A stretch of DNA of 64,000 bases from Diplosphaera chodatii (Eukaryota; Chlorophyta; Trebouxiophyceae; Prasiolales; Stichococcaceae), in assembly GCA_032358165.1 (NCBI GenBank), contig JAALGY010000061.1, positions 992,001-1,056,000 of the forward strand, in the 5' to 3' direction. Both the position numbers and the translations under genes were made by a program. This document shows, one piece after another, positions 40,901-64,000 of this stretch. The notes under the pieces were generated by a model. It saw only the letters and a list, made by a program, of their open reading frames with translations. It was not told the DNA's origin and ran no database searches. Within the stretch, counting starts at the first letter, position 1. The number at the start of each line of letters is the position of its first letter.

Positions 40901-43900
40901 ATGACACACCTGCCTTGGACACCGCAGCATAGCTTTCCAGCAGTGCGGCTCCATTGCACATCTTTTGTCACTGACTGACCTGGCAACATGCCAACGTTGC
41001 AGATCCTGCACTCGCTGCCCTTCTTCGCCAATGTGCCAGAGTCGCTGTTCGATCGCGTGCTGGAGGCTGGCCAGCTCATCATGTACACAGCAGGTCCGCT
41101 GGGTTTGAAGGCAAACAGCAACCCTGCTTTCAAAGCACGTTCCTGTGCAGCGGAGTGTTGAGCACCCACCGCTGGCACCACAACATTCACGTGCTGCACT
41201 TCCAAAGTGTGCTGGTTGGCGGTGCTCAGGTGACGTGATCTGGCGGCCGGCGCCGGATGAGAAGGACCTGCAGCGGAGCAGCAAGTCCTTTGGCCGCCAC
41301 AGCGATGCTGCCACACGTCAGGCCAGCATCGCCAGCCTAAAGGTTGGTGATTGTTTGCTACCCTGCTGTGCAGGTCGGGCTGCTGCGTACATGTGTACCC
41401 ACATGCGTGTGGCAGCTTGCTGGGTCGCAGGTCCCCAGAACTGGGTGATCGTCCCGCTGCGCAAGTAAGCAGCGTTGCTGTTGACCCCCTAGTGTCAAGC
41501 TGAATAAACTCTCCTGCATGATGCCAGGCGGACGGCAGCAGCAAGGAGGACAGCCGTGAGAATGGCGACACCATGTTCGGCCCTCCAGCACAGGGGCCGC
41601 GCCAGGGCAGCCAGGGCGTGTTTGTTGTGCTGCACGGCATCGTGCGCTCTGCGTACGCAGCGCCTGATGGCACTCAAAGCGTGAGTGTCGGGACACACAC
41701 AGTTTCAGACTCTCCTTGCTGTGACCTTCAGTTTCGTGCGGGCCTCTGGCCGCCATTACAGCGCCAATAAGTTGCAAGCTGGTTGCCATGTGTCATGCCA
41801 TGTGCAATCCCAGGCAGGGGACTCTTGCCCAAGGATTCCTACTGCCAATGACGCTGCGAGTGCTGCAGGAGTACTTCCTGGGGCGCGGGGGCATGTTCGG
41901 ACTGTTGCCAGCGCTGACTGGGGAGGCGCTGCCTGGCGCTCGCCCCGTCATTGCGGAGGTGCGTCGGATCATCAGCGCGACATGCACTGCCTCGTAGCTG
42001 CTCTATGTGTCCCAGTGCATGTTGCAGTGCGCCCTGAGACCCGCTGCTCACATGACATGCAAGCGATCCCATGCTGCAGGGCAACCTGCTGCGCCGGGGC
42101 CCCGTCGTGTTCCGGATCCCGCCCGAGGTGGTGCGCTCCGTCCGCAAGGACGCCGACGGCGGCGACGCGGCCTGCGAGCAGCTCATGCTGGACCTGTACA
42201 GGTGCTCCGATGTTGCAAAGACTCGCGGAGCTGAGGCTGCAGCAGGCGCTCTGGCACAATGCATGAACGCAGTCATCACCAACGCACTCTGCAAGACGCC
42301 CGTGCCAGTCCCTGCTTTGAACACGTGATGCGGTCGGACGGTTCATGGTGCTGCCCGGCAGGGTGTCGGCACTGTATGTGGCGGAGCGCATGCGGAATGA
42401 GGTGGTCGCCACGGTCGCCGCCCACTACCAGCAGCTGGCGCTCGTGGCGGCCCGCCGTGCCGCGGTGCGCGCCACCCACCGCCGCACCATGTCCCTCCGC
42501 GAGTCGGTCAAGGTGCGCGCCCAGCTCCAGGCGGGTCACGTGCATGCACTGTCACTGGACTGGTACAGCATGCTTGAATTCAAGCTGCAAGAGGATCGGA
42601 ACGCACACCGTCACCTCTTCAGGGTTTCCCCAAAACAACGGGGAAGCAGGGCTGCGATTGCGACAAGCTGGCGATGGCATGAGTTGGAGACCTTCGAGCC
42701 AACGGCAGCCAGCCTCGCACAACAAACAGTGTTTGGCTGCTGCGCAGCATCCGAAGGACGACAAGAAGAAGGAGGGCAAGAAGGAGGGCGGCGGTGGAGC
42801 CGACAAGGCGCAGCGGGCCCGCACCTTCCTGGAGGCCGAGTTCGACGAGGCCGTCGACGCTTTGAAGCAGCAGGTAGCATGGGCGACTGCTGCGCAACCA
42901 AGGGACATGGCGTAGTTGCGGCGCACATGCTCTCCTTGTGGCCCATGCGACTGCTTCTGAGCACATGCTGTTCGCCACGGCCATGCCAGGAAGCAAGTAT
43001 TTTGCAGGTTGGCCTGATCAAGTGCGACTCTTGGGTACTGGACTTAGTGACACCTTGACGCTTGCCGCCATGCAGAGCCTTGCCAAGTCGTCTGGCAATC
43101 CAGAGCAGGAAGGCACGCCGCATGTCGCTGCGCCTTCGCCCTTTGCCAGAGGTGGGGTCGTTGGGCCACCGCAGTTCCTGGTCTTGAGGGACATGTGGCA
43201 GTGGCAAGTCCCTATGCCATGCATGACTGCAGATTCGTCCGAACCCCCTGACACTTTCATCATGTATGCCTGGTGGGCAACCAGCAGTTGGCACACGGAT
43301 TGGTGCTTGGTGCAAGGACTTGCTGCCTTGAACAGCTGGTAACCTGTCGACCATACAGCTATCATGCGGTTTTCAGACAGTCTGGCGGAAAGGCTTAGTG
43401 AAGGATCTGCTGAAGGCCACCTTTCTCGGAAAGGGTTGCAGTGATAGCAAACCGCCTCCACCGCTAGCCACATCGTCTTGCGGTTGTCACCATGACTGCG
43501 CCTGACTGCTTCGATGTCGTGGATGAGCAGGAGACAACGCGCAGCAGCAGTCGCACGGTGAAGCGCGGGGCATCCCGACGGACGCAGAGCTGCTGGACGC
43601 CATGGACCCGCAGGCCATGTACAAGGAGGTGCAGAAGCACGCGTCCGCAGGTGCGCACGTTGTGCAGCAACGGGTCGCATCGGTTCTGCGGCATGACACG
43701 CAACCGCTGACCCGACGTATAAGTGCAACCCTGCGCTGACTGGACCGTGTCAACAGGTCGACGCTCTGCTGCTGTTGCAGAGCGCTGTACTCTTGAGCAC
43801 CTTCTGTCGTGGCGCCTTACACACAGACCGCACTGGACAGTGCGTTCACAGGGCTGCAATCAAGAGCAGCTCCTTCCAATGCGCCCCTGGCTCAGCTGCC

Positions 43901-49818: not shown

Positions 49819-52415
49819 ATGTTGCGCCGTGCTGGCATCAACAATGCCACACTGCTCAAGCTGGCGGCCCTTCGGTTGTTGACGCCACGCGATGTCCTGG
49901 TGCACTCGCCGCTGGACCTGATGGAGATGCTGGATCAGTCGCTGCCCGCAGGTGGCCTCCAGGCAACACAAGCCGCAGCATTGATCGTGCCGTTACTTTG
50001 AGACGATGAACACTGATCAGTCGATCAAATGCACCGAACGTGGTCCAGAATGCTTGCGGACGAGACAGCATGGTGGTGTCAGCCAGACATGCTCACAGCT
50101 GGCTATGGATAGCAGCCTATATAAAATTCAGGACTGGCAAATGGGTGTTGCAGTGGAGGCGCTGCTGCGGCTGGTGGCTGCTGCGTCGCTGCCACAACCC
50201 CTCACAGCGCTGGATCTGGCCCGCATGCAGGCAGCTCGGCTGACACACCTGGCCACACAGCTGCAGGTCACCTACTCTCTTGCACTGCGCAGAGTGTCGA
50301 CTCCCTGGCAAAGCATGACACGAAGGAGCACATCGTGTCCATCTTGCCATGAGCAGATCACAGCAAAGCTGTAGGGGTGTACCGGCATGGAATGCAGCAT
50401 TGAAGGCATGTTGGCAGAGTAGAAGGCAGATGATTGGCATAAGGCAAGGCGGGTGTGCAGTTGACAGGCCTTGGACCGGGTGCTGCGCGGCGGGTGTGCC
50501 TGCGGCAGCATCACGGAGCTGGTCGGACCCGCGGGTGTCGGCAAAACCCAGCTGTGCCTGCAGCTGGCAGCCATCGCAGCATCCCTGCCTATGAGCCCTC
50601 AGAGCAACCAGGTGTGCTTAGGTGCATGCCCAGCCGGAAGTCTTCGCTGTCATGTTACTGCTGGATCTGCGCTATGCTGTCTTTTAAACCGCTGTGCATT
50701 CTGTCGTCCATCTTCGCATTATCGCACGGAGCGCTTGTTTGCCTGTTGGCACTTCTGGAGTGGAGCGTCAGTCGACGCTTCTTGCAACAACCATTGTAGA
50801 TGGACATAGTGAACCCTGCTGACTGCAGCCCGGATCCGCATGCTACATCGACACCGAGCGCAGATTCAGGTGCCAGCAAGTGTTGAGAGTACTGCCTGTC
50901 GGACTCCTCTGATGGCACAGTTGATCAGCCACCCGCAACTGTCAATGGCAGCCTATTCTATGCTGTTTGTCTGGTGTATGTGCAGTGCGAAGCGCATAAA
51001 GGAGATCGCTGTCACGCGGTTTCCACAGCAGTACGCCACACAGCCAGCACAGATCGCGCTCCTAGGGCGGATACATGTCATCACGCCTGACGGCGTCCCG
51101 GATCTGCTGCAGAAGTTGCAGGTGTCATGCGACTGCTAGCTGTACTGTGGAGTCTGTGCACAGTGTATCAAACGTCTTGTCACCTAAAGTGTCCACCTGC
51201 ACACATGCACACAGGCTCTCGAGCAAGGAGAGACGACACGCAACAACATCAGGTGAGCAGCTTCCGCTTGCGTCCCGACCCTCGTGCTGCTATGCTGGGT
51301 CAGGCCCTCCTGAGCAGCGTGTGTGGCGCAGCTGCTCAGTTCCCTGTGCTGCGGCGCAGGGTTGTGGTGGTCGATAGCATCGCAGCCCTGGTCCGCAACG
51401 ACACGGACCGTCAGTATTCAGACCAGCAGCAGCTGCTGGGTGATGATTATGCATGCCATGCCCGACACTGCTGTGCACCACTGCTTTTGCACTTTGCCTG
51501 CTCCTGCATGCTTGTAAGCATGCGGTTCCTGCATATGTGCCAGCTTCTGTTGCTGCCTCCACCCAGGTCAACAGGCGGCTGTGCTGAAGAGCTTGGCTGC
51601 ACGATGTCATATCCCGGTCATCGTCTCCAACCAGGTACATGCATGTTGCTCTGCATCAGGCGAGCAACGCGTTGAACGGCTTGCACGCAGCCACGTGTGG
51701 CCTGCTGGCACTTTGAGCCGCTGACTTCAAACTTTGGCAATTGGTTCCCCGCAGATCACCACAGCTTTTCAGACGCCTACACATGTCTTTGATATGACGT
51801 CGCGGCCCCAGCAGACATCCTATATGACACCAGCACTCGTGAGCATGCCTTTCACCTCTATGCTCAAACGTAGTGCGACGAAAACGTGTTGCATGGCAAG
51901 GGTCAGCACTGGCGAAGCCCTGTCACTGCGCAACACAGTGCTGCATGCTGCAGGGCCCTCAGTGGGCGCATGCCGTGAACACAAGGCTGGTGCTTGAGGC
52001 GTCTGCAGGGGTGCGATGGATCAAGGTGGGCACAGCTGATGCAGTTCGCACTTGAGTGCCCACACTGTTTTCATGAGACGGGCTGTCGCATGTTCTGTCT
52101 TGTGTGTGCTGTGGGCATACTAATGTGCACTCGTTCACTGTTGTGGCAGGTGGCCAAGAGCCCTGTGGCCCCCACAGTAAGCACAGTTTCCGCAATCTAC
52201 GGATGTTGTACAGGTGGTTCCAACCAATGACTATCCTATGATATGACCTGACGCTGGACAACACCTATTTCAGATCAGTTCTGATGGCTTTGCAGGTCGC
52301 ATTTGCCTATGCCATCGACGCCTCAGGCCTTCAGCTGCTGGACCGTCCGCCTTTGTCAAGTGCCGTGCTGCATGGGGGCTTGCTAGCAATGCCTGTGGCC
52401 AATGACAGCTTGTAA
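49819..52415 (+). CDS. RAD51B: RAD51B, RAD51 paralogue for homologous recombination
   Basis: Twelve exons join in phase to 352 codons (351 aa): 49819-49951, 50154-50266, 50468-50611, 50829-50869, 50986-51121, 51215-51252, 51360-51439, 51567-51634, 51755-51838, 51954-52025, 52150-52176, 52296-52415. The N-terminal helical region (RRAGINNATLLKLAALRLLT) matches RAD51B. The ATPase core has Walker A GPAGVGKTQ, CYIDTERRF, Walker B VVVVDSIAALVR, HIPVIVSNQITTAF, and GPQWAHAVNTRLVLE followed by KVAKSPVAPT and a VAFAY strand. RAD51B works in the BCDX2 complex, helping RAD51 load on single-stranded DNA in the nucleus. The length is typical. RAD51B is preferred over RAD51C, RAD51D or XRCC2 because of the N-terminal pattern and the LGPQWAHAVNTRL and VAKSPVAP segments. 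The stop TAA is at 52413-52415. Confidence 0.94.
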
Positions 52416-53543: not shown

Positions 53544-55386
53544 ATGCAAATGCAGATCGTTCAGTACTGGTACTACCGTCACAGAAGCAATCGACGCTAC
53601 GCTGCTATTGGGCATCGATCATCAGAAACGGTCTCGATCGTCATTCCGGTGAGCAGACTGTGCCAACGCACCGTAGCATCTGCGGTCAATCTCGACCCCG
53701 CCTGCCAAACCTGCTGATCTGATTGCTGCAGGCACTGAACGAAGCAAAGACGTTAAGGCGGACTTTGGAGGTGCAGAGCTCTTGCTACTGCTGTCCTCGC
53801 CAACACATGCATGTTGCTGTGGTGCGCCTAAACCTGCTTCAAAACCTCCTCGACAGACTTGCAGTCCGACATGCAGTGGCTGCAACGGCTCCAGCCACCC
53901 GCGCGGGAGATCATCGTGGTGGATGGCAACAGTGAGGACAGGTGCAGATTGGTTTATGGTCTTTGGATCGTCGCGTTTATCTGGCAGTCAGCCGCAGGAA
54001 TGGGCGATGTGGGAGGTGCACACAAGCGGCATGGTTCCCGACTTCTAGACTCCCATCCTGCAGCACGGCCCAGGTAGCACAGGCTGCCGGCGCCACTGTG
54101 GTGTCATCACATAGGGGTCGGGCCATCCAGATGAACGCAGGAGCCGCCAAAGCCTCAGGCAGGTCGCTGCATCGCACTCGCGTGGCGCTTGATGGCAATT
54201 GTCGGATGGTTGACGGTGTAAATAGTGTGGAGACAAGACACAATACCAGGTTGTGTACTGCAGGCGAACTGCTGTGCTTTGTGCACGCCGACAGCCGCCC
54301 GCCGCTAGAATTGGTGCGCATCATGCGCTTGACACTGGCAGACCCAATGACGGTTTTGGCTGGTGGGCGGGTCTTCCGGATGGGACGTCTCGCTGTGCTT
54401 GTCGTGCTCTCCAGACCTGGCAGATTGCCACGTATTTTGTCGTGTTCCTACTGACCTGTTCAAGTCCGTAGTTCAGCGTGACTCTGCTTGGCAGTTGTCG
54501 GTGCAATTGCTACAGAGTGCACATGTCCGACGCACTTCTTGACCAACGACCACAGGCTTCCGCACGCTGATAGAGCGCCACGATGGCTCGCTGCTGCGCT
54601 TCATGACCGTGCACCACCTGCTTAAAAGCTACTACCTGGTGATGGTCGCGCGCCCTCTGATGTGGCTAGGGTACGATTTTGCTCCGTCAGCAGAACCTGC
54701 AACTGACTCCAGTCCGTGCACCTCATGAGGGGCGTGGGTGCTGCCAGCCTGCAGACACCCGTTGATATATTTCATGGCTGTTTGCGCAGGGGCGGCTTAG
54801 CGCTCTTTGGAGACCAGAGCATCTTTTGTCGAGCGGCCGACTTTCAGCATGCCGGAGGATATGATGAATCGCTGCCCATCATGGAGGACGTACAGCTTTG
54901 TATAAGGTGCAGTAAAATGCTGTTGATCCGGCAAGATGCAAGGGTGCTCAGCAACGTTGACATGCGCCTGAGAAATTATCGTGGCACTGCAGCATGCATG
55001 AGAGGCTGCCATCGGCTGCAAACAGACAGCGGCGATATTGGGAGGTGTGGCAGCTGCCCTGGTCATTGCGCGGCCACATCAAACAGGTGAGATGCCAATG
55101 CAGTGATATGATGTCGTCTTCTCATAACAGGTCTGATAGTCGATGAGCTCGGTGTGATAGCTTCCTAGGGCTTGCATGGGTGGCTGTATTTGTGGCATGT
55201 GCTATATGATGCCATGTGCAGATCCTGTGGCCGCCAGCGTACACCAGCGGACGGCGGCTGGAGGCCCTCGGCAACTGGAAAGCCACGAAGATACATTTCA
55301 CGATCGGCTTAGGCTGGTATCTGGGCATCTCACGGGAAAGGCTCATCAGGCTGTATAGGACGCTGTACGCCGACAGCTACCGATGA
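53544..55386 (+). CDS. Family-2 glycosyltransferase of the rSAM/selenodomain-associated type
   Basis: Nine exons join in phase to 302 codons (301 aa): 53544-53648, 53732-53770, 53865-53941, 54064-54158, 54264-54362, 54556-54670, 54790-54906, 54993-55086, 55222-55386. The GT-A signature reads VSIVIPALNEAKTLRRTLE, then EIIVVDGNSED, QAAGATVVSSHRGRAIQMNA, LLCFVHADSRPP (the HAD metal-binding triad), FGDQSIFCRAADF and GGYDESLPIMEDVQL. This order matches bacterial proteins annotated as 'transferase 2, rSAM/selenodomain-associated' (TIGR04283). It ends with a partly hydrophobic helix, HFTIGLGWYLG. The intron after exon 4 uses a GC donor (CAG|GCAGGT). The start could also be 53520. It is convergent with arsM. 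Donor and acceptor sugars are unknown; its place beside arsenic genes suggests a role in arsenosugar formation, which is inference. Confidence 0.85.
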
Positions 55387-55736
55387 CATAACTGGACAAG
55401 CAATGGACTACAATACTGAAATACGAAACAAACAATACAATTGCAGTCTTACGTCGCTTCGTCCCTGCTAAAATTGCAAGACTTACGTTGCTCTGCAACA
55501 CCTTCCAACGACCCCAATGTCTGTCTGCAAACCATGTGCCAACCTTGCGCATGCTGCACTTTAGCTACAGCTTCTGCTACAGAGCAGCACGAGAATACTT
55601 CAGCCTCCTTCATCTTGCAGCTTCACTGGCGCTGCTGCAGGCTGAAGGGTGAAGTAGTTTAGCCCCCAGGTTGCAGATACATAAGAGCGGCTGTAAGCTG
55701 CGCAACCATGCGCCAGCTGCATTTCCTTAAACTTGT
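55387..55736. other. Convergent 3' region, glycosyltransferase / arsM
   Basis: 350 bp between the two stop codons, presumably both 3' UTRs. A plus-strand TGTAA, the usual green-algal polyadenylation signal, occurs near 55692. No other feature is seen. Confidence 0.4.
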
Positions 55737-58402
55737 CTAGTAGCAGCTGCTGGCAACTGTTGGTGGCGCCTCTTCTGGCAGCTTGTAATCCGAGGCGCAT
55801 GCGGTGTACGCGCCGAAGTGCACTGAGCGGTCACCAACGACCTGCGCAGGTAGCCAGATACAGTGCACTTGGCACAGATGGACACACTGCATCGGGCAGC
55901 TTGCAGGGTTGCCATTGAGCGCAGACGACGAGTCAGCCGAGCAGCTGCCCATCAAGATTGCAGGTATACATGAAAGGCAGGGGTACATGCGTTGCTAGAG
56001 TGTGCGGCGATATGTCAAACTTGACAGCATTATCACGAGCCAGTATTTGCACTTCCGGGGTCTGCTGGCAAGGCATCGTGACGGACCACATCCACATGCC
56101 CCAAGCTTGCTGCATCATGAGGGATGTTCTGCACAGGACTCTGACCTCAAAGTGCTTTGCAAGCCAGCTGACGCCGTTCTCGCCAAGCATGGCGGCTGTG
56201 TTGCCGCACACCGACGTGCGGCGCCCTGTCTCGAAGACATGCCCCTGGTCCAATTTGTACGCATGCGGCTGCCCCTCAATGCTGCCCTGCAGCACACGGA
56301 CACCACATAGTCTGCAACTTGGCTTTAGTGTTTGAGTTCAGGGTGGACCTCTACATGGATTGCCCTTCATCAGACAACCACAAGCATAGCTGCCGACTCA
56401 TGCTAGCCAACGGGTTCATGCAAAGGTCTGCAGGGCGCAGTCGCGACACTGGCCAACGTGCCACACCCATCGGATGGCCATCCAACATGCCTAAAGGGTA
56501 GGAGCACATGCCGGTGCAAAAAAGCCAATCACCTTGTAGACAGCAACCTGCCCGTACTCCTCGCAGTCGGGCTCCACCAGGCCCGGAAGCTTGAACAGCC
56601 GGAAGGTGATGCTGTAGAAGCGAATGTTTCCGACTGCATCCTGCGTGAGGCGGGGGCCGCAGCAGACGAAAGTGGGCGATGCAGTATGCACTTGAGTGCA
56701 ACGAGGACACAGAAGGCCGCAGACTGCAGCACTTGACGGGCGCTGCGAGCCTGAGCAACCTCACAAATGATCCCTCTGCCACGCACCTGGATCTCGGGGT
56801 CGTTGATGGCAACGGGCCCCTGGTGCAGGATGCGCGGGTCGGCAAAGCCCGCCTCCTTCGCGATGCGCAGGAAGTCGTTCATGTACAGGGCCCCAGCAAT
56901 GCACTCACCCCAAATCACCTGCAGCCCAAGCAAACCTTGTGCGCACATGATGCAGCCATCCTGGCTTCCCTTAATGTCCTGACTTGTCCTGACTTCGACA
57001 ACATGTAAGCAGACATGCACAGTCAAGCAAAAGCAAAAAGCAGAGCAAAGACTGAGCTGGCGAGGTGCAGCAGCATGTGCAGCAGCCAGTTGATGCACAC
57101 ACGTACGAGTCTGCTTGGAACATCCATTGCTGCTGTCACAGGCGCACCTCATCTTTTTGCAGAGCTGCTGGAACGCGCCTATCTGCGTACACATCGCTGA
57201 AATGCATCTCGCCCCCCGGCCGCAGCACACGGTATGCTTCACGAATGACGCGCTGCTTGTCTGGGCTGAGGTTGACGACGCAGTTGCTGATGACGAGATC
57301 CACAGACTCGTCCGGAATCCCGGCCCTGCAACATGATGTTGGAAGGACCTTGCTGCCCTTCGATGCTAGGCATCTCAGCAGCTTTCACAGTAGTCAGTGA
57401 AATTCTGCAGCACTGGCTCTGCAAGTGCTGCGTGCCTGTCGAGGTACTCTATGTGGCCAGTGACAAACCGCATGTTGCTGCAGCAGTGGCCAAGCTGCCT
57501 GCTGTATGCCTCCATATGTCGCTTTGCAACCTGCACAACCATCCAAGACGTGATGGAGGTGCTATCCAGCATTCCGTTTCATCAGGATGCCACCTGAAAT
57601 GCTCTTTCGTACAACAACACTGCGGCCATGGCACATTGAGGGCCCGTGCGTTCGAGCCGATAGATTGGATTGACCTGATTTTGCTCCTCCGTCATGTCAA
57701 TGCCAGTCACGCTGCCGCGCGGGCCCACAAGCGCTGCGCACACGTAGCAGTCGCGCCCGGATCCGCTGCCCAGGTCCAGCACGTGCAGGCCGTCGATGCC
57801 GAGCGGCAGCGGCGCCCCGCAGCCGTAGAATTTGGACGTCACCTCATCCGGCACCCGCGCCAGGATCTGCGTTGCATGTTGGGACCTTGCGGACTGCTCA
57901 ATGTGCAGCGACTCGTCGATAGTGGACTGCCTTGTTGTTCTGCATTCGCACCGTTGAGGTTGCAAGGGAAGCAAGCAGCAGATGCACATCTGCACCTGCC
58001 GAATCTGCTTTGGCGGCGCGCCGCCGGCTGTGCATGCCCCTATGAGTGAAGCAACACACAAGCTCCACTGTGTGCCAGTAAGCAACACTGCAGCCATCCA
58101 TCGATGACAGGAGTGCAAGGGCTCACCTGTTTTGAGGTTCTTGGAGGATTTCAGTACCTGCGCATGGTGCAGAGCAGGCTATGTAGATGGCTGGTGGTGC
58201 CTTGCTGCACATCATGCAATGACGCAACGTTCGGCTGCACAATGCACTATACCTTGCCGTAATACTCCTGGACCGACTCATACGTTCCGTTCGACGGGGC
58301 CGCAGTTGTCCCATTGACCATGTCTGGTTCGACCGCGCCGTTGGCCACTACCTGGTGCACGTTGCCATCCGTGCCATCATTGCAGGACGTGCAGGACCTC
58401 AT
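55737..58402 (-). CDS. ARSM: Arsenite S-adenosylmethionine methyltransferase ArsM
   Basis: Converts As(III) to methylated arsenicals using SAM. Ten exons join in phase to 392 codons (391 aa): 58253-58402, 58127-58157, 57996-58039, 57675-57866, 57436-57530, 57148-57325, 56787-56918, 56533-56640, 56146-56286, 55737-55841. Motifs are VQEYYGK, KTGACTAGG (C63), SKFYGCGAPLPLG, SAM motif I VLDLGSGSGRDCY (104-116), GIDMTEEQ, VISNCVVNLSPDKQR (C186), YRVLRPGGEMHFSDVYADRR, VIWGECIAGALY (C236), HVFETGRRTSVCGNTAAML and VGDRSVHFGAY. C63, C186 and C236 correspond to the three cysteines needed for As(III) binding in algal ArsM; the 50-residue gap between the last two is as in the Cyanidioschyzon enzyme. The intron after exon 5 uses a GC donor. 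Ten exons rule out bacterial contamination. There is no clear transit peptide, so it is probably cytosolic. Confidence 0.96.
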
Positions 58403-58846
58403 GTGGCTATCACCAGCTGAGCGACAGACTTGCCCTAGCACTTTTCTACGTGGTGAACTTCCCGGGACGTAAGCACTACTGAACGCTGCAGCACGCTGGC
58501 CGACAAAGGTGCACGCAACAGGCAGCTGCCGCCAGACCTGCACTGCACAACGCTGCGCTGCTGTGACCTGCCTTGGTGTCTTATGGCGCCACGCAAGTCA
58601 ACCATGCAATCATCGAACATGCACTTGCACACAGGCAGAGTGGAGCAGAAGTGGGAATGGTGAAAGTGCAGCAAGACCCGGGTCCCATGTACCAGCTTAG
58701 CAAATAGTTCCAGTAGGCAGACACCCCCTCTACCCTGGCCAGCTGGCATTCGGACAGTTGAGGTTAGTCCCCCTTGTGCAGCATCATGCACGGGAACAAA
58801 TGCTCTTTTGTGTCGCGTCACGATACAGCCCAACACTTCCACATTC
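58403..58846. promoter_or_regulatory. Divergent promoter region, arsM / small membrane protein
   Basis: 444 bp between the arsM start (-) and the first membrane-protein start (+). It contains GCGTCAC at 58815-58821, a string that includes the bZIP TGACG core on the other strand. The same 7-mer occurs in the arsH/bZIP divergent promoter. The regulatory role is unproven. Confidence 0.4.
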
Positions 58847-59113
58847 ATGCCGCCGTGGTTTTGGGTGGTGATTGCACTCGGGCTGCAAGCTGTGTTTGTC
58901 GTCGCTTACTTCAAGCAGGCGTTCCTGCAGCGCCACCTGCGCGACCATGCTCGGGCTGCAGCTGAGGCAGAAGCACCTGCCATCAGCCCTCCGCTCCGAG
59001 ATATCTGCATCACCGTGAAGGATGGCATCTACTGTCAGCAGCCCGCAGGGCCAGTTTTTGTAGCATTCGTGGATGCAACGCAACATCCGACCATTTTAAG
59101 CGCCCAACAGTGA
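58847..59113 (+). CDS. Possible 88-aa single-pass membrane protein
   Basis: An uninterrupted 89-codon frame (88 aa) from ATG 58847. It starts PPWFWVVIALGLQAVFVVAY, a strong membrane helix, then a basic amphipathic stretch (FKQAFLQRHLRDHARAAAEA) and a soluble tail with one Cys pair. No family is recognised. It ends only 80 bp before the start of the next small membrane protein, which has the same design (N-terminal helix, Arg/Leu-rich stretch, polar tail). It may therefore be a tandem paralogue, an alternative first exon, or an upstream ORF of the same locus. Confidence 0.4.
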   Translation: MPPWFWVVIALGLQAVFVVAYFKQAFLQRHLRDHARAAAEAEAPAISPPLRDICITVKDGIYCQQPAGPVFVAFVDATQHPTILSAQQ

Positions 59114-59193
59114 GCAGCACGTAACACTCCGCGAGCCCACAGCGCGACCCGTCAGCACGGCCTACTGCTGCCGCCTGGGCGTGACAGGGCAGC

Positions 59194-60167
59194 ATGTACG
59201 AGGTCATCTTCGTCTTTGTGGTGATATTCACGGCAGTGTACCTGTGCCTGCGGAACCGCAGGCGGTTATTAGAGGCGCAACTGCAGGTGGGGACACAGAC
59301 AGCACCTGAAGATACTTGCAGCACGGCTGGTCACAGATACACACCACATGCCTGCAGCATGTGCAAACAGGCGTGCCAGCCTGATTGGAAGTGAAGTGCT
59401 TCTTTGCACTCGTGTGTGTCATGGATGGGATGCAGGAGCACGCGGAGGCACATGCCAATGGCAGCGACGGCTTGGTGGCAGTCCGAATCAACAATGACTG
59501 GTACCTGTTTTCACGGGCCGCAGCACCTCCGGGCCATGAGCAGGTATGCTCGACAGCCAATGCCTGCCACCAGTGAACCCAATGGTGATGCGCTCCAGGT
59601 GCTTGCATTGCACCAATGTGCACAGGCTTGCAAGCCACCATTTTTCGCTTTGCCACCATGTTTTCGCTTTGCTTGGTGGTCATTCAAGGCATACACTGCA
59701 TGAAAAAAAGGCGGCATGACACCATGCTGCCAACCTGATGCATATTCGATGAACCGCAGGCCGGCGTGCCGCTCGGACCAGTGGTTGCAGGACAGCCGCT
59801 GCCTGACGCCAAGGCGCTGCTGGTGGCTCAGCCCGATGGCGAGATGTCAGTGGCGCTGGAGGATGAGAAGGTCTGCAGCCTCCTCCTGGGAGTTCAAGTA
59901 CATATGGGCCACGCCCACCTGCGCAAGCCAAGTTGTCAGGCGCTGAGTGCTCAGTAGTGCGTGCGCCGCGGCATGCAGCAGTGTGTCAACGGCCGGAGTG
60001 GAAGCCTCGCGCCGTGCATGCAGGCTAAGCCCGCGGCCGGGCAGGCGGCCTCACGGGAGGTGCCCCAGGACCCGGCGTGGAGTGCGGCTGATGAGGAGGC
60101 GCCCCCGGCGCCGCCGCCCCGGGAGCGGTTTGTCACCCTGGCAACCATCCCGAGAAGGGGCAGATGA
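59194..60167 (+). CDS. Unknown 151-aa single-pass membrane protein between arsM and arsH
   Basis: Four exons (59194-59286, 59436-59543, 59760-59870, 60024-60167) join in phase to 152 codons. The N-terminus is one transmembrane helix (MYEVIFVFVVIFTAVYLCLR) followed directly by a basic, Leu-rich juxtamembrane segment. The soluble part contains GLVAVRINNDWYLFSR and ALLVAQPDGEMSVALEDE, which could form a small beta domain. A Pro-rich tail ends ERFVTLATIPRRGR (stop 60165-60167). It resembles no arsenic transporter (ACR3 or ArsB need about ten helices). Its place between arsM and arsH makes a supporting role possible, but nothing in the sequence proves it. Confidence 0.6.
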
Positions 60168-60598
60168 TCCAGTGGTGACTACCTGAGCAGCGCAGCGCTA
60201 CAGGGGTGTACAGTCGGGCGTGGGCAGTCGCATCGCTGTTAGCAGCAGCAGATCCAGGGGCAGTTGCAGTGGCAGCGGGTGGTGCAGGTAGTGGAGGCTG
60301 CTACGATGCACACTTGATTGTGTCCCTGGGTCCTTGTATTGTTACCTGTTTTCACAGCCAGTGTCGTTTCGTACAGCTTGGTCAGTTTACAGTGGTTTCC
60401 ATGTACTCCTTGGTGCTAGTGATCCATCAGCGTGCACACTGCCGGGTCATGCTTGGGTTACCCATGCAGTTTCCACATCATCAAATCCTGCAGCATCTCA
60501 TCGACGTTGAAAGCAAGTGCATTTAGACAATATCAATATGTTCCTGTAGGCACAATGTGTGCCTACGCTACACAGGAAGTTAGCCCGTCTAGGCAATA
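60168..60598. other. Convergent 3' region, membrane protein / arsH
   Basis: 431 bp between the stop codons of the membrane-protein gene (+) and arsH (-). Presumably 3' UTRs; no other feature recognised. Confidence 0.4.
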
Positions 60599-62602
60599 TC
60601 AGCCCTTTGCAGCCACGTCCTTCTGCTTTCCTGCTTCCTTTTCCGCCTGCACGAGCATTCCCAGGTCGTTGGTCTTGTTTGGAGGTACTGCGAGCAGCTT
60701 CATATCAGGCAGCCTTTCAATACTGTAGAACAAGCTGCTGCAGCAGCGGCCATCAGCAATTGCTGGAAAAGTCACCCAATGACAAACACCTGTGAGAGCA
60801 GCCGACCATTGCGGCGCTTTTCCTCCCGCTCGCTGTACCTACGGCACATGAAGAAGACATTGCATGGGTGTAGCAGACAGGGCTGCAGTGAGTGCGTGGT
60901 GTGCACACACAAATGCTGGGCTCAGGCAGATGAGGATCTGGTCCAACCTCTGGGGCCCTCGCACTTCCACCTCCCAATGACCCTGCTGGAGTACCCAAGG
61001 ATGATGCCATGCAGGTTCACTGTGGTACCAGCACCACTGACATGCACCTGTCCACGAGGTAAACGCTGTGCGGCCGCAGAAGCAGCCCGAACTTCAGGAG
61101 CTCCTCGGCAACATCGACAACCCGATCCCGTAGGCTGCTGGGCTGCAGGCAGCAACATATGGAAAGCATTCGAACATCCAGCGCTGGAGATATGATGGTG
61201 TTGCACTGTAGAATCGCCTTGGTGAACTGCGCAGTGCATGCCTGAGGCTGGCAATGCGACACAGTTTCTGCTTACTGCATCTGGGAGGCAGCAAGAGCAT
61301 AGGCAGGCAAACCTTCATGCGGCCTTCTTCGTCAAATTCTGTCCAGGCTTTGGGGACACTGGATTGGTTTGGGATGGTAAACATACGCATCCAGCGGCCC
61401 TGTGTACACCCAGCAGCGTCGTGTTGTAGCACATAAATAGCAGTGTACACGCTGCAGGACAGTAACTCGGTGCCCGACTCACCAAGTTTCGCAACGTGCT
61501 CACGACGTTAAAAGATTGTGAGCCGCCATTAACCTGTACGGTATCGGATCAAGTGACCCTCCAGCACACGCTGTAGCTTTGCTACAGGCCTGACAAGATC
61601 ACATTGATGCCTCACTCGCCAGAGCATACCTGCGCAATGGCCAGTGTCCGGCCCTGTGTGGGCCTCACAGACCCTAGGCTGAGCGGAATCCAGTCGATCT
61701 GGTTCTTGAACACGCCTGTGATGGTGCCATGCTGCTCCGGCGACACCCAGACCTACATTCCCGTCAGCGGCATTCAGTACACCAAATGCCAGACGGAACA
61801 GGCAGATGCAGAGGCCTGTCATGGGTGAATCAGCACCTGCGCCTCACTCCACATGCTGAGGTTTCTGATCTCCTGCACTTTGGGGTGCGATGTGGAGGCC
61901 TCGTCCTTCATTGGCAGTCCTTCTGGGTTGTACACACGCACCTCCGCCCCAAGCCGCTCAAGAACTCTGCAACAAGCGACGGCCACGCAACCTCCTTGTC
62001 CGCGTGTTTGATTTATCAGGCATAGCCAGAGAGCTCATACCAGCTCTTGTACATACAAGCAGGGGAATCTTCGCGGCTCTGCTGCGCCTACCTGGAGAAC
62101 TCATACGCCAGCAGCTTGGAAAAGCTCCGCTGTCGCAACGAGCCATATAGTACCAGTACTTTAAGAGGATCCTCGGCAGTAGCATCTGCCGTGGAACGCG
62201 CTGTATCCAGCTCAAGATGTTGAACCCAATCACGTTCTGCAGCCTCATCAACAAGACGGAATGGCTGGTAGTTGGGCACTGATAGCTCTGCAGGAGCCTG
62301 CGGCAGCACAGCACAAGCTCACGTCAAACCGAATAAGTTCAATCGGTTGCACAAGCTGTCATCATCAACTCCTGCTGCTCTGTTACGAGCAGCCAGCATG
62401 TGGTTTGCATGAAATCATGCAGAGTCCTGACCATGCTCACCTGGTGTCCGTTGGAGTTTGGTGTGACTGCTGAACACATGAGCGCTGGATGGATTTGCCT
62501 GCTCGTAGCGGGCGACCTCAGTGCAGCAATCAGGGGCTGGAACTGCTGCTGCACAGGCTGGTTTTGCAGCCAGACGCGTGATCCGCTGACGACGCGCAAC
62601 AT
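60599..62602 (-). CDS. ARSH: ArsH, NADPH-dependent FMN organoarsenical oxidase
   Basis: ArsH flavoproteins oxidise toxic trivalent methyl- or aryl-arsenicals to less toxic pentavalent forms. Nine exons join in phase to 347 codons (346 aa): 62441-62602, 62092-62297, 61837-61966, 61630-61752, 61483-61533, 61313-61399, 61048-61142, 60776-60838, 60599-60722. Diagnostic ArsH segments are [17 protein letters not shown] (FMN phosphate loop), [72 protein letters not shown] and SVYLVDRYSER. The first 54 residues ([20 protein letters not shown] onward) are basic with few acids, like a plastid or mitochondrial transit peptide. A tail of about 55 residues beyond the usual end finishes [14 protein letters not shown]; its last intron has a weak donor (TTGG|GTGACT) but restores the phase exactly. 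Convergent with the membrane-protein gene, divergent from the bZIP gene. Confidence 0.95.
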
Positions 62603-62811
62603 CAAAGTAGGGCCGCGAGTCAGAAGAGCTACCGGAAGCGATTAGGGGAGGACAAACAATTGCCTGCGTCACTCGTCTGCAACATTCTCATGCTGCGCCG
62701 GTGATGTGATTTGGGGCATCCAATGCTGATTGATTCTGTACGGTTGTACCTGCAAACGATGGCCCTGCAAGCACTGAATCTCAGGACATTCACACCGCCA
62801 GTGCTGCGTTC
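62603..62811. promoter_or_regulatory. Compact divergent promoter, arsH / bZIP
   Basis: Only 209 bp separate the two start codons, so the genes probably share regulatory sequence. GCGTCAC (62666-62672), containing a TGACG-type bZIP half-site, is also present in the arsM divergent promoter. No Yap8-type pseudo-palindrome was seen. Confidence 0.45.
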
Positions 62812-64000
62812 ATGGAGTCGGAAAGCAGCTTCCTGAGCTCGCTGGCTGCACAGCTCCTGGAGGGCAGGAGCCCCTTCGAGGTCGGGTGCATGACAAAAGT
62901 GGGCATGCAGAAATCCGTGCAGCCTGGCTTTGGTGCATGCATTTGATCACCTGTATGATGTGGCTGTATATGCAGGCACAGCTGTCACGTAGCGGAGCAG
63001 GGTCGCAGCCTGATGCTGACGTGCCGCTCTGTAGCCGCAGCCGTGATGCCGGTCCAGCAGAACATGCTGACTCCTCGGTGGAGACCAGGCTCGGAAGGAA
63101 GGCAAGCCCTGCAGCCGAGCATGACGCTGTTCCTCTTGCGGTGCCCAATGTGTTCGCGACTTTCGTCATCTCCTTATCAGGTGTCGATGCTGCGCGCCAA
63201 GAACCGGCGTTCTCAGTCTCGGTACAGGGCCAAACAGAAGGTCCGAGGGCTGTGATCTCCGCCGACATGGCAATAAAGCGTAAACTCGATGTCACAATAG
63301 TGTTGTGCACGCCTCAGACGCCTATACGGTGGCTTGCAGGAGCGACAACAGACGACCGAGGAGCAGCTCAAGGAGCTCCAGCAGCAGCTGCAAAGGTCGT
63401 CTGCCGATCAGGCAAGCATGCCATGTCAGCGTGCCGGAGACTGTGTAGCAGATATGGTTTGGTCGTGCAGGGACGCGATCGACAACGCCTCTGTCTTTTG
63501 CGCGCATCATGCTGCAGGTGTTGCTTGAGCAGCGCAACGCACAGCTGGAGGCACTTGTAGCAGAGCAGCAGCTGCTGCAGCAGGAGAGCAGCCCGGTGTG
63601 CTCAAGCACCAGCGCTTCAGCAGTTCCCAGCCCGACGAATGGCATATCTGCAGGCGAGGAACCGTGCAGCAATGGCTGCGCAGACGCCTCATGGCAGGAT
63701 GCCACAATGCAGGTAGCAGTGCTCCAACACCGCCAGCATGGTGATCACCATGAGACATGCAGCTGGGCACCGTACAAAGTGTGACACAGTGCAGCTTGTT
63801 GGATGCAAGTTTTAGCCTCCCACATCTTCCTGCATGGGGCAGGCGCTGCTGGCAGACGAGCTGCAGCTTGCGGAGGGCTTCACATTCACAGTGCGGCCTG
63901 GCGCAGCGCTACAGCTCACGCAGCCGCAGGCGGGTGGTTTTCCCCTGCCAATGAGGGCAGGATGCATCAGCTTGCGACCAGCTCTGTGAAGGCACTCGAC
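62812..64000 (+). CDS. bZIP transcription factor with Yap-like basic region (3' end possibly outside)
   Basis: Modelled exons are 62812-62880, 62976-63101, 63181-63240, 63340-63411, 63518-63712 and from 63843 on. The basic region is in exon 3: RAKNRRSQSRYRAKQK, with the invariant N-x7-R, Gln at +4 and an aromatic at +7. This is the fungal Yap/PAP pattern rather than the usual plant NRxSAxRSR. A leucine-zipper coil follows across exons 4 and 5 (EEQLKELQQQLQ ... LLEQRNAQLEALVAEQQLLQ), then a Ser/Cys-rich region with several Cys (VCSS, EPCSNGC), of interest because Yap factors sense metalloids or oxidants through cysteines. The exon 2 and exon 4 donors read GCAAGC (GC-AG introns); exon 2's end is the least certain. 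Exon 6 runs to at least about 63990. Divergent from arsH. Confidence 0.78.

Follow-up and report, generated by a model that had tools for sequence, protein, structure and literature searches.

A probable arsenic detoxification cluster with ArsM beside ArsH, ACR3 and ArsC in the nuclear genome of the green alga Diplosphaera chodatii

Introduction

Bacterial ars operons that carry both arsM and arsH exist. The set of functions is the same at the locus described here, whose genes in Diplosphaera chodatii are nuclear and spliced, stand separately and occupy both strands. Among algae, the cited part of one report places ArsB/ACR3, ArsH and ArsC in common neighbourhoods in Chromochloris zofingiensis, Coccomyxa subellipsoidea and Klebsormidium nitens, with ArsM outside these neighbourhoods and with a duplicated arsenic cluster in C. 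zofingiensis (PMC7826186). In Aspergillus fumigatus, the genes for ArsC, ArsB, a Cyt19 methyltransferase and ArsH carry consecutive numbers twice, as AFUA1G16090-16120 and AFUA5G15000-15030, in the rows cited from PMC3289889. The yeast YAP8-ACR2-ACR3 cluster, in the excerpt cited, has a bZIP gene beside an arsenate reductase and ACR3 (PMC6545440).

We compared our locus to these systems. As in the algae of PMC7826186, ACR3, ArsH and ArsC lie together as intron-bearing nuclear genes, and a duplicate is present as in C. zofingiensis. In contrast to the neighbourhoods given there, ArsM lies inside the block, and a bZIP-like gene and small membrane proteins are interposed. The A. fumigatus runs likewise bring together ArsC, an arsenite permease, an arsenic methyltransferase and ArsH in two copies, but they are fungal and have no bZIP gene among the consecutive rows cited (PMC3289889). 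Fungal and algal methyltransferases are assigned to different groups, with fungal ArsM forming Group IV, in the cited part of PMC5552862. With the yeast cluster, as excerpted, the locus shares an arsenate reductase and ACR3 with a putative bZIP-type gene adjoining; here, however, the protein is only weakly bZIP-like, none of the five upstream regions tested contains the core TTAATAA, and ArsC is of the LMWPc type. Since partial precedents exist in algae, A. fumigatus and yeast, the locus can be seen as a fuller version of known arsenic clusters. No algal arsenic cluster with ArsM was recognised in our literature search, which took in mostly titles and abstract openings and scarcely covered subscription journals. 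Relative to the cited parts of these sources, what is new is ArsM beside the algal ACR3-ArsH-ArsC core; that core and the fungal runs were already known.

Results

We analyzed a window of 64,000 nucleotides (C51:992001-1056000) from a genome of 85.6 Mb in 55 contigs. Everything past position 64000 lies outside the window and is given in window-equivalent coordinates. Comparison of contig C51 with a duplicate block on contig C1 yielded conserved exons, from which spliced models were built and scored against curated families. The predicted genes of the block are, in order:

53626..55386, plus strand: GT, family-2 glycosyltransferase (TIGR04283); 9 well-supported exons, model of 277 residues
55737..58321, minus strand: ArsM, arsenite S-adenosylmethyltransferase; 10 exons, 364 residues, spliced model with a match to 5evj
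58847..59115, plus strand: TM1, small protein with one N-terminal hydrophobic helix; intronless reading frame, divergent from ArsM
59194..60167, plus strand: TM2, small protein with one N-terminal hydrophobic helix; 4 exons, 151 residues, spliced model
60599..62297, minus strand: ArsH, NADPH-dependent FMN organoarsenical oxidase family; 8 exons and a possible first exon at 62441-62479
62812 to about 65870, running past the window end, plus strand: bZIP-like gene, transcribed divergently from ArsH; basic motif N-x7-R recognised by eye
66263-69213 (window-equivalent, past the window), minus strand: ACR3, arsenite efflux (TIGR00832)
69316-69757 (window-equivalent), minus strand: small gene of no family; model with an uncertain first exon
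70204-71069 (window-equivalent, past the window), plus strand: ArsC, arsenate reductase; LMWPc domain

GT forms one edge of the block. ArsM, ArsH, ACR3 and ArsC span 15.3 kb, and between them lie the bZIP-like gene, TM1 and TM2, and one small gene of no family. The original prediction had named a glycosyltransferase, ArsM, small membrane proteins, ArsH and a bZIP gene, and the gene models place GT, ArsM, TM1, TM2, ArsH and the bZIP-like gene where these had been claimed; the spacing of ArsM and ArsH, put at about 2.2 kb, was measured as 2.28 kb. Its limit of the cluster did not hold, as ACR3 and ArsC continue beyond the window. The description of all genes as intron-rich does not hold for TM1, which has no introns in the C51 copy; the C1 counterpart is broken by three GT-AG introns at matching places. 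Searches of curated family profiles gave no family match for TM1, TM2 or the small gene at 69316-69757. Gene identity, intact models and location are direct observations of this analysis.

The solved structure nearest to ArsM is 5evj (425 bits, with a query version four residues short), which we take to be the Chlamydomonas arsenite methyltransferase, and the protein scored 101 bits against Methyltransf_31. Against the bacterial model PRK11873, the version four residues short remained below the cut-off (185.8 versus 263), a shortfall that carries little weight because a eukaryotic sequence was scored on a bacterial model. All 10 aligned homologs share cysteines 36, 64 and 159, and 9 of the 10 have cysteine 209; presumably they correspond to the catalytic cysteines of CmArsM. 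The methyltransferase fold and the conserved cysteines expected of an arsenite methyltransferase are both present. In CmArsM itself, cysteines 72, 174 and 224 are named as conserved in the cited part of PMC5552862. Among 120 listed relatives, the highest score belongs to a Plasmodiophora record that carries a repeated domain and has 55% identity, the closest by identity among the matches listed reach 71% and 69%, and those bearing an organism name, a minority of the 120, come chiefly from green algae (Myrmecia and Coccomyxa, for example) and include no fungus. Three of the 120 listed relatives (P0064, P0076, P0087) are fusions of ArsM with an LMWPc domain, which over short stretches is 29-38% identical to our ArsC. 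The fusions may be taken as a modest, independent sign that the functions of ArsC and ArsM go together.

ArsH passed the TIGR02690 cut-off (348.2 versus 292.25 bits) and matched the structure 2q62 with 293 bits. Its similarity to fungal and to algal proteins is alike (about 70-78% each), and the model on C1 begins later than that on C51. ACR3 passed TIGR00832 (382.1 bits, cut-off 282.8). The LMWPc domain of ArsC likewise passed (46.9 versus 23.2), and the protein scored below all arsenate-reductase cut-offs: PRK13530 (58.1, cut-off 215), TIGR02689 (53, cut-off 157.6) and TIGR02691 (52.3, cut-off 174.3). ArsH, ACR3 and ArsC lie close together, which is the criterion for an algal ArsH-type neighbourhood in the cited part of PMC7826186.

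Searches of the genome with its own arsenic genes, which score the best candidates only, placed all 10 ArsH exon matches, all 11 ACR3 matches and all four ArsC matches within the blocks on C51 and C1. The ArsC matches come from a protein search, which replaced a search with the profile NF010053 that gave no match in the genome (short exons). For ArsM, one of three and three of seven matches lay outside the two blocks, all of them weak. Strong matches to ArsM, ArsH, ACR3 and ArsC are found in the C51 block and its C1 duplicate only, and four arsenic genes within 15.3 kb are far beyond chance. ArsM and ArsH had been put forward as a logical pair in a real nuclear arsenic cluster. Because ACR3 and ArsC follow them, and because strong matches are confined to the two blocks, this reading is now stronger than when first claimed.

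Contig C1, reversed, is collinear with C51 from at least window position 41585 to window-equivalent position 90069. DNA identity between the blocks is mostly 72-80%, with short pieces of up to 98%. The C1 models of seven genes contain no inner stops, and dN/dS between the copies (NG86) ranges from 0.028 to 0.096 across eight genes (ACR3, 0.028; ArsM, 0.052; TM2, 0.057; ArsH, 0.062; the small gene of no family, 0.069; ArsC, 0.070; the bZIP-like gene, 0.071; GT, 0.096). Purifying selection is acting between the two copies, and both look functional. The genes neighbouring the arsenic block are also collinear between C51 and C1, and an ArsS-like gene and a second GT likewise lie in paired contigs with about 75% identity over some 8-10 kb. 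The arsenic block is part of a wider doubling in the genome. We therefore rejected the C1 duplicate as independent proof of selected clustering, since the neighbouring genes share its collinearity.

The gene predicted to encode a bZIP protein is present, and its identity is a motif-only assignment. With the first 111 residues, the best Pfam bZIP family was bZIP_2 at 12.1 bits, below the cut-off of 22.3 (E = 0.22), and the match to jun-D had an E value of 3.7. It is a plausible guess that this putative factor is an arsenic regulator; it would then control the cluster, whose genes may be co-expressed. The five upstream regions shared no promoter word in any of six word classes. In 25 random controls, the mean number of words was 1.2 for 7-mers (four regions), 1.72 for 8-mers (three regions) and 14.9 for 10-mers (two regions), and the control stretches could overlap, which leaves this test little power. 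The motif TGACGT is scattered across the upstream regions and is present in both copies upstream of ArsC only.

GT just passed TIGR04283 (184.8 bits, cut-off 182) over profile positions 1-221 of 221. Its first exons are uncertain, with possible ones from 53431, and the C1 model differs in that part. A tree built from 32 proteins joins both GT copies to one relative at 100/100 and unites the cyanobacterial proteins with one from Chloroflexaceae in a group; most forks among the green-algal sequences are open (of the tree's 29 inner branches, 14 are open). We inspected 80 bacterial GT loci kept from at least 482 relatives. In 38 of them, GT identity was at least 49%, and 31 of the 38 are titled cyanobacterial. 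None of the 38 had ArsM (at least 80 bits), ArsS, ArsH, ACR3 or ArsC in the flank covered, 15 of these loci being shorter than 16 kb. Five of the 38 had a 43-47-bit methyltransferase match, UbiG-like by eye, and the common neighbours resemble, by eye, a rhodanese, a methyltransferase of the UbiG type and a protein with DUF547. Of 42 more distant loci, six had such a neighbour: ArsS was present in four and an ArsM-like match scoring 80 bits or more in four, two loci having both. For algae we used a proxy, namely contig sizes and gene names in three protein lists (120 listed each), by which the GT contig differs in size from that of ArsM or ArsH in all five comparable species (Myrmecia bisecta, Coccomyxa subellipsoidea C-169, Trebouxia C0010, Chlorella vulgaris and Monoraphidium minutum). 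In every species used, the comparison is of GT with ArsM or ArsH. Coccomyxa viridis and Trebouxia C0004 were dropped for differing name prefixes, perhaps from different assemblies, and Klebsormidium nitens for contigs of 4.8 and 15.5 kb. Within our genome, a second GT of the TIGR04283 family is located elsewhere, and the ArsS-like gene, seen as exon matches and a spliced model, lies on other contigs; arsenosugars are therefore possible, though not from the arsenic cluster alone. The family originally proposed for GT is thus borne out by TIGR04283, but its arsenic link is weak given the bacterial and algal comparisons. GT is probably a bystander of the arsenic cluster, and its membership in an arsenic unit is doubtful.

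Discussion

We consider it likely that the block is a green-algal nuclear arsenic detoxification cluster of ArsM, ArsH, ACR3 and ArsC, with GT probably a bystander. The enzyme activities of the cluster proteins are predicted from their sequences, and the following route is proposed from their family assignments. ArsC would convert arsenate to arsenite, which ACR3 would pump out of the cell. Retained arsenite would be turned by ArsM into trivalent mono- and dimethyl forms, and ArsH would convert these toxic trivalent methyl products into pentavalent forms. We infer that TM1 and TM2 may have an arsenic-related part as well. A tentative extension, which we hold to be possible but would not favor, is a supercluster of convergent origin that unites reduction, efflux, methylation and organoarsenical oxidation with its own bZIP arsenic sensor, and in which TM1 and TM2 would be new small membrane proteins related to arsenic. 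If true, it would join in one place the ArsC-ArsB-methyltransferase-ArsH set of Aspergillus and the bZIP-reductase-ACR3 set of yeast.

The selected cluster might instead be the ACR3-ArsH-ArsC core alone, with ArsM, and GT too, brought next to it by a chance rearrangement and not tied to it in regulation. The position of ArsM outside the neighbourhood in the algae of PMC7826186, as far as cited, would fit this, as would the lack of shared promoter words in the low-power test of five upstream regions and the descent of both copies from one block. Yet ArsM is the natural supplier of the ArsH substrate and lies 2.28 kb away; by our own arithmetic, the chance that this one named gene falls so near ArsH is of order 1 in 10,000. 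The A. fumigatus cluster, in the rows cited, also includes a methyltransferase (PMC3289889), and we regard a core selected without ArsM as unlikely. If GT were the sugar-side enzyme acting on ArsM products, the block would be an arsenosugar biosynthesis cluster. TIGR04283 is named arsenosugar glycosyltransferase, GT lies just over its cut-off, an ArsS-like gene is present in the genome, and ArsS or ArsM-like matches occur near GT in the 6 of 42 more distant bacterial loci. However, ArsS lies on other contigs and the second GT of the family elsewhere too, no arsenic neighbour was seen in the flank covered at the 38 close bacterial loci (15 of them shorter than 16 kb), and GT is apart from ArsM or ArsH in all five comparable algae. 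An arsenosugar cluster thus seems quite improbable to us.

The equal closeness of ArsH to fungal and algal proteins (about 70-78%) could point to bacterial or fungal contamination, or to a complete cluster recently acquired from a fungus or bacterium. Against this stand the many introns, the duplicate within the same genome, and the ArsM relatives, of which the named minority among the 120 listed is mostly green-algal and free of fungi, while the top-scoring listed row is the Plasmodiophora record with its repeated domain and 55% identity. Contamination itself is rejected: besides the introns and the duplicate, the host contig measures 1.96 Mb, and conserved exons next door resemble, by eye, an RWP-RK factor and an exportin. 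This agrees with the earlier claim of a nuclear, resident locus, and a foreign origin of either kind is scarcely credible. The reading as an algal detoxification cluster is the one we retain.

In algae it is unusual for the genes of a pathway with toxic intermediates to be clustered. That toxic intermediates favor clustering is an idea put forward, in the cited part of the source, for the ACR3-ArsH-ArsC set (PMC7826186); with ArsM beside ArsH, ACR3 and ArsC, it becomes testable for eukaryotic gene clustering. The locus also nominates a candidate arsenic regulator and two small proteins of no family, and its two diverged copies in one genome make a direct comparison feasible.

Gene structure of the arsenic block

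One intron of the predicted arsenite methyltransferase gene ArsM apparently uses a GC donor (57436, minus strand), as the residues YLDR can be retained only with this donor. Among the listed relatives of ArsM, three proteins from other protists (P0064, P0076 and P0087) carry an ArsC-like LMWPc domain fused to ArsM.

In bacteria, close relatives of the TIGR04283 glycosyltransferase at the block edge often adjoin a DUF547-like gene (16 of 38 loci, L054-L091), with a rhodanese-like gene found beside them in 15 and a UbiG-like gene in 11 of these loci, all neighbors being named by eye. Upstream of the algal glycosyltransferase gene, an open frame at 50465-50809 contains a P-loop, GPAGVGKTQLC, that by eye resembles that of RAD51 relatives.

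Two copies of an ArsS-like radical SAM gene, assigned by exon to the arsenosugar family TIGR04167, are located far from the arsenic cluster:

C38:828-831 kb, copy 1 (locus L048)
C24:1795-1797 kb, copy 2 (locus L049)

Duplicate blocks

The small-protein gene TM1 (58847-59115) is intronless in the window, and its counterpart on contig C1 (about C1:951.55-952.36 kb) contains three GT-AG introns at matching positions. This difference points to joint loss of adjacent introns (or else to gain), perhaps via a reverse transcript. Collinear duplicate blocks of about 75% DNA identity are found on three contig pairs (window 41585-64000/C1, C38/C24 and C35/C52), and the genome looks as if it arose by an ancient doubling or by hybridization.
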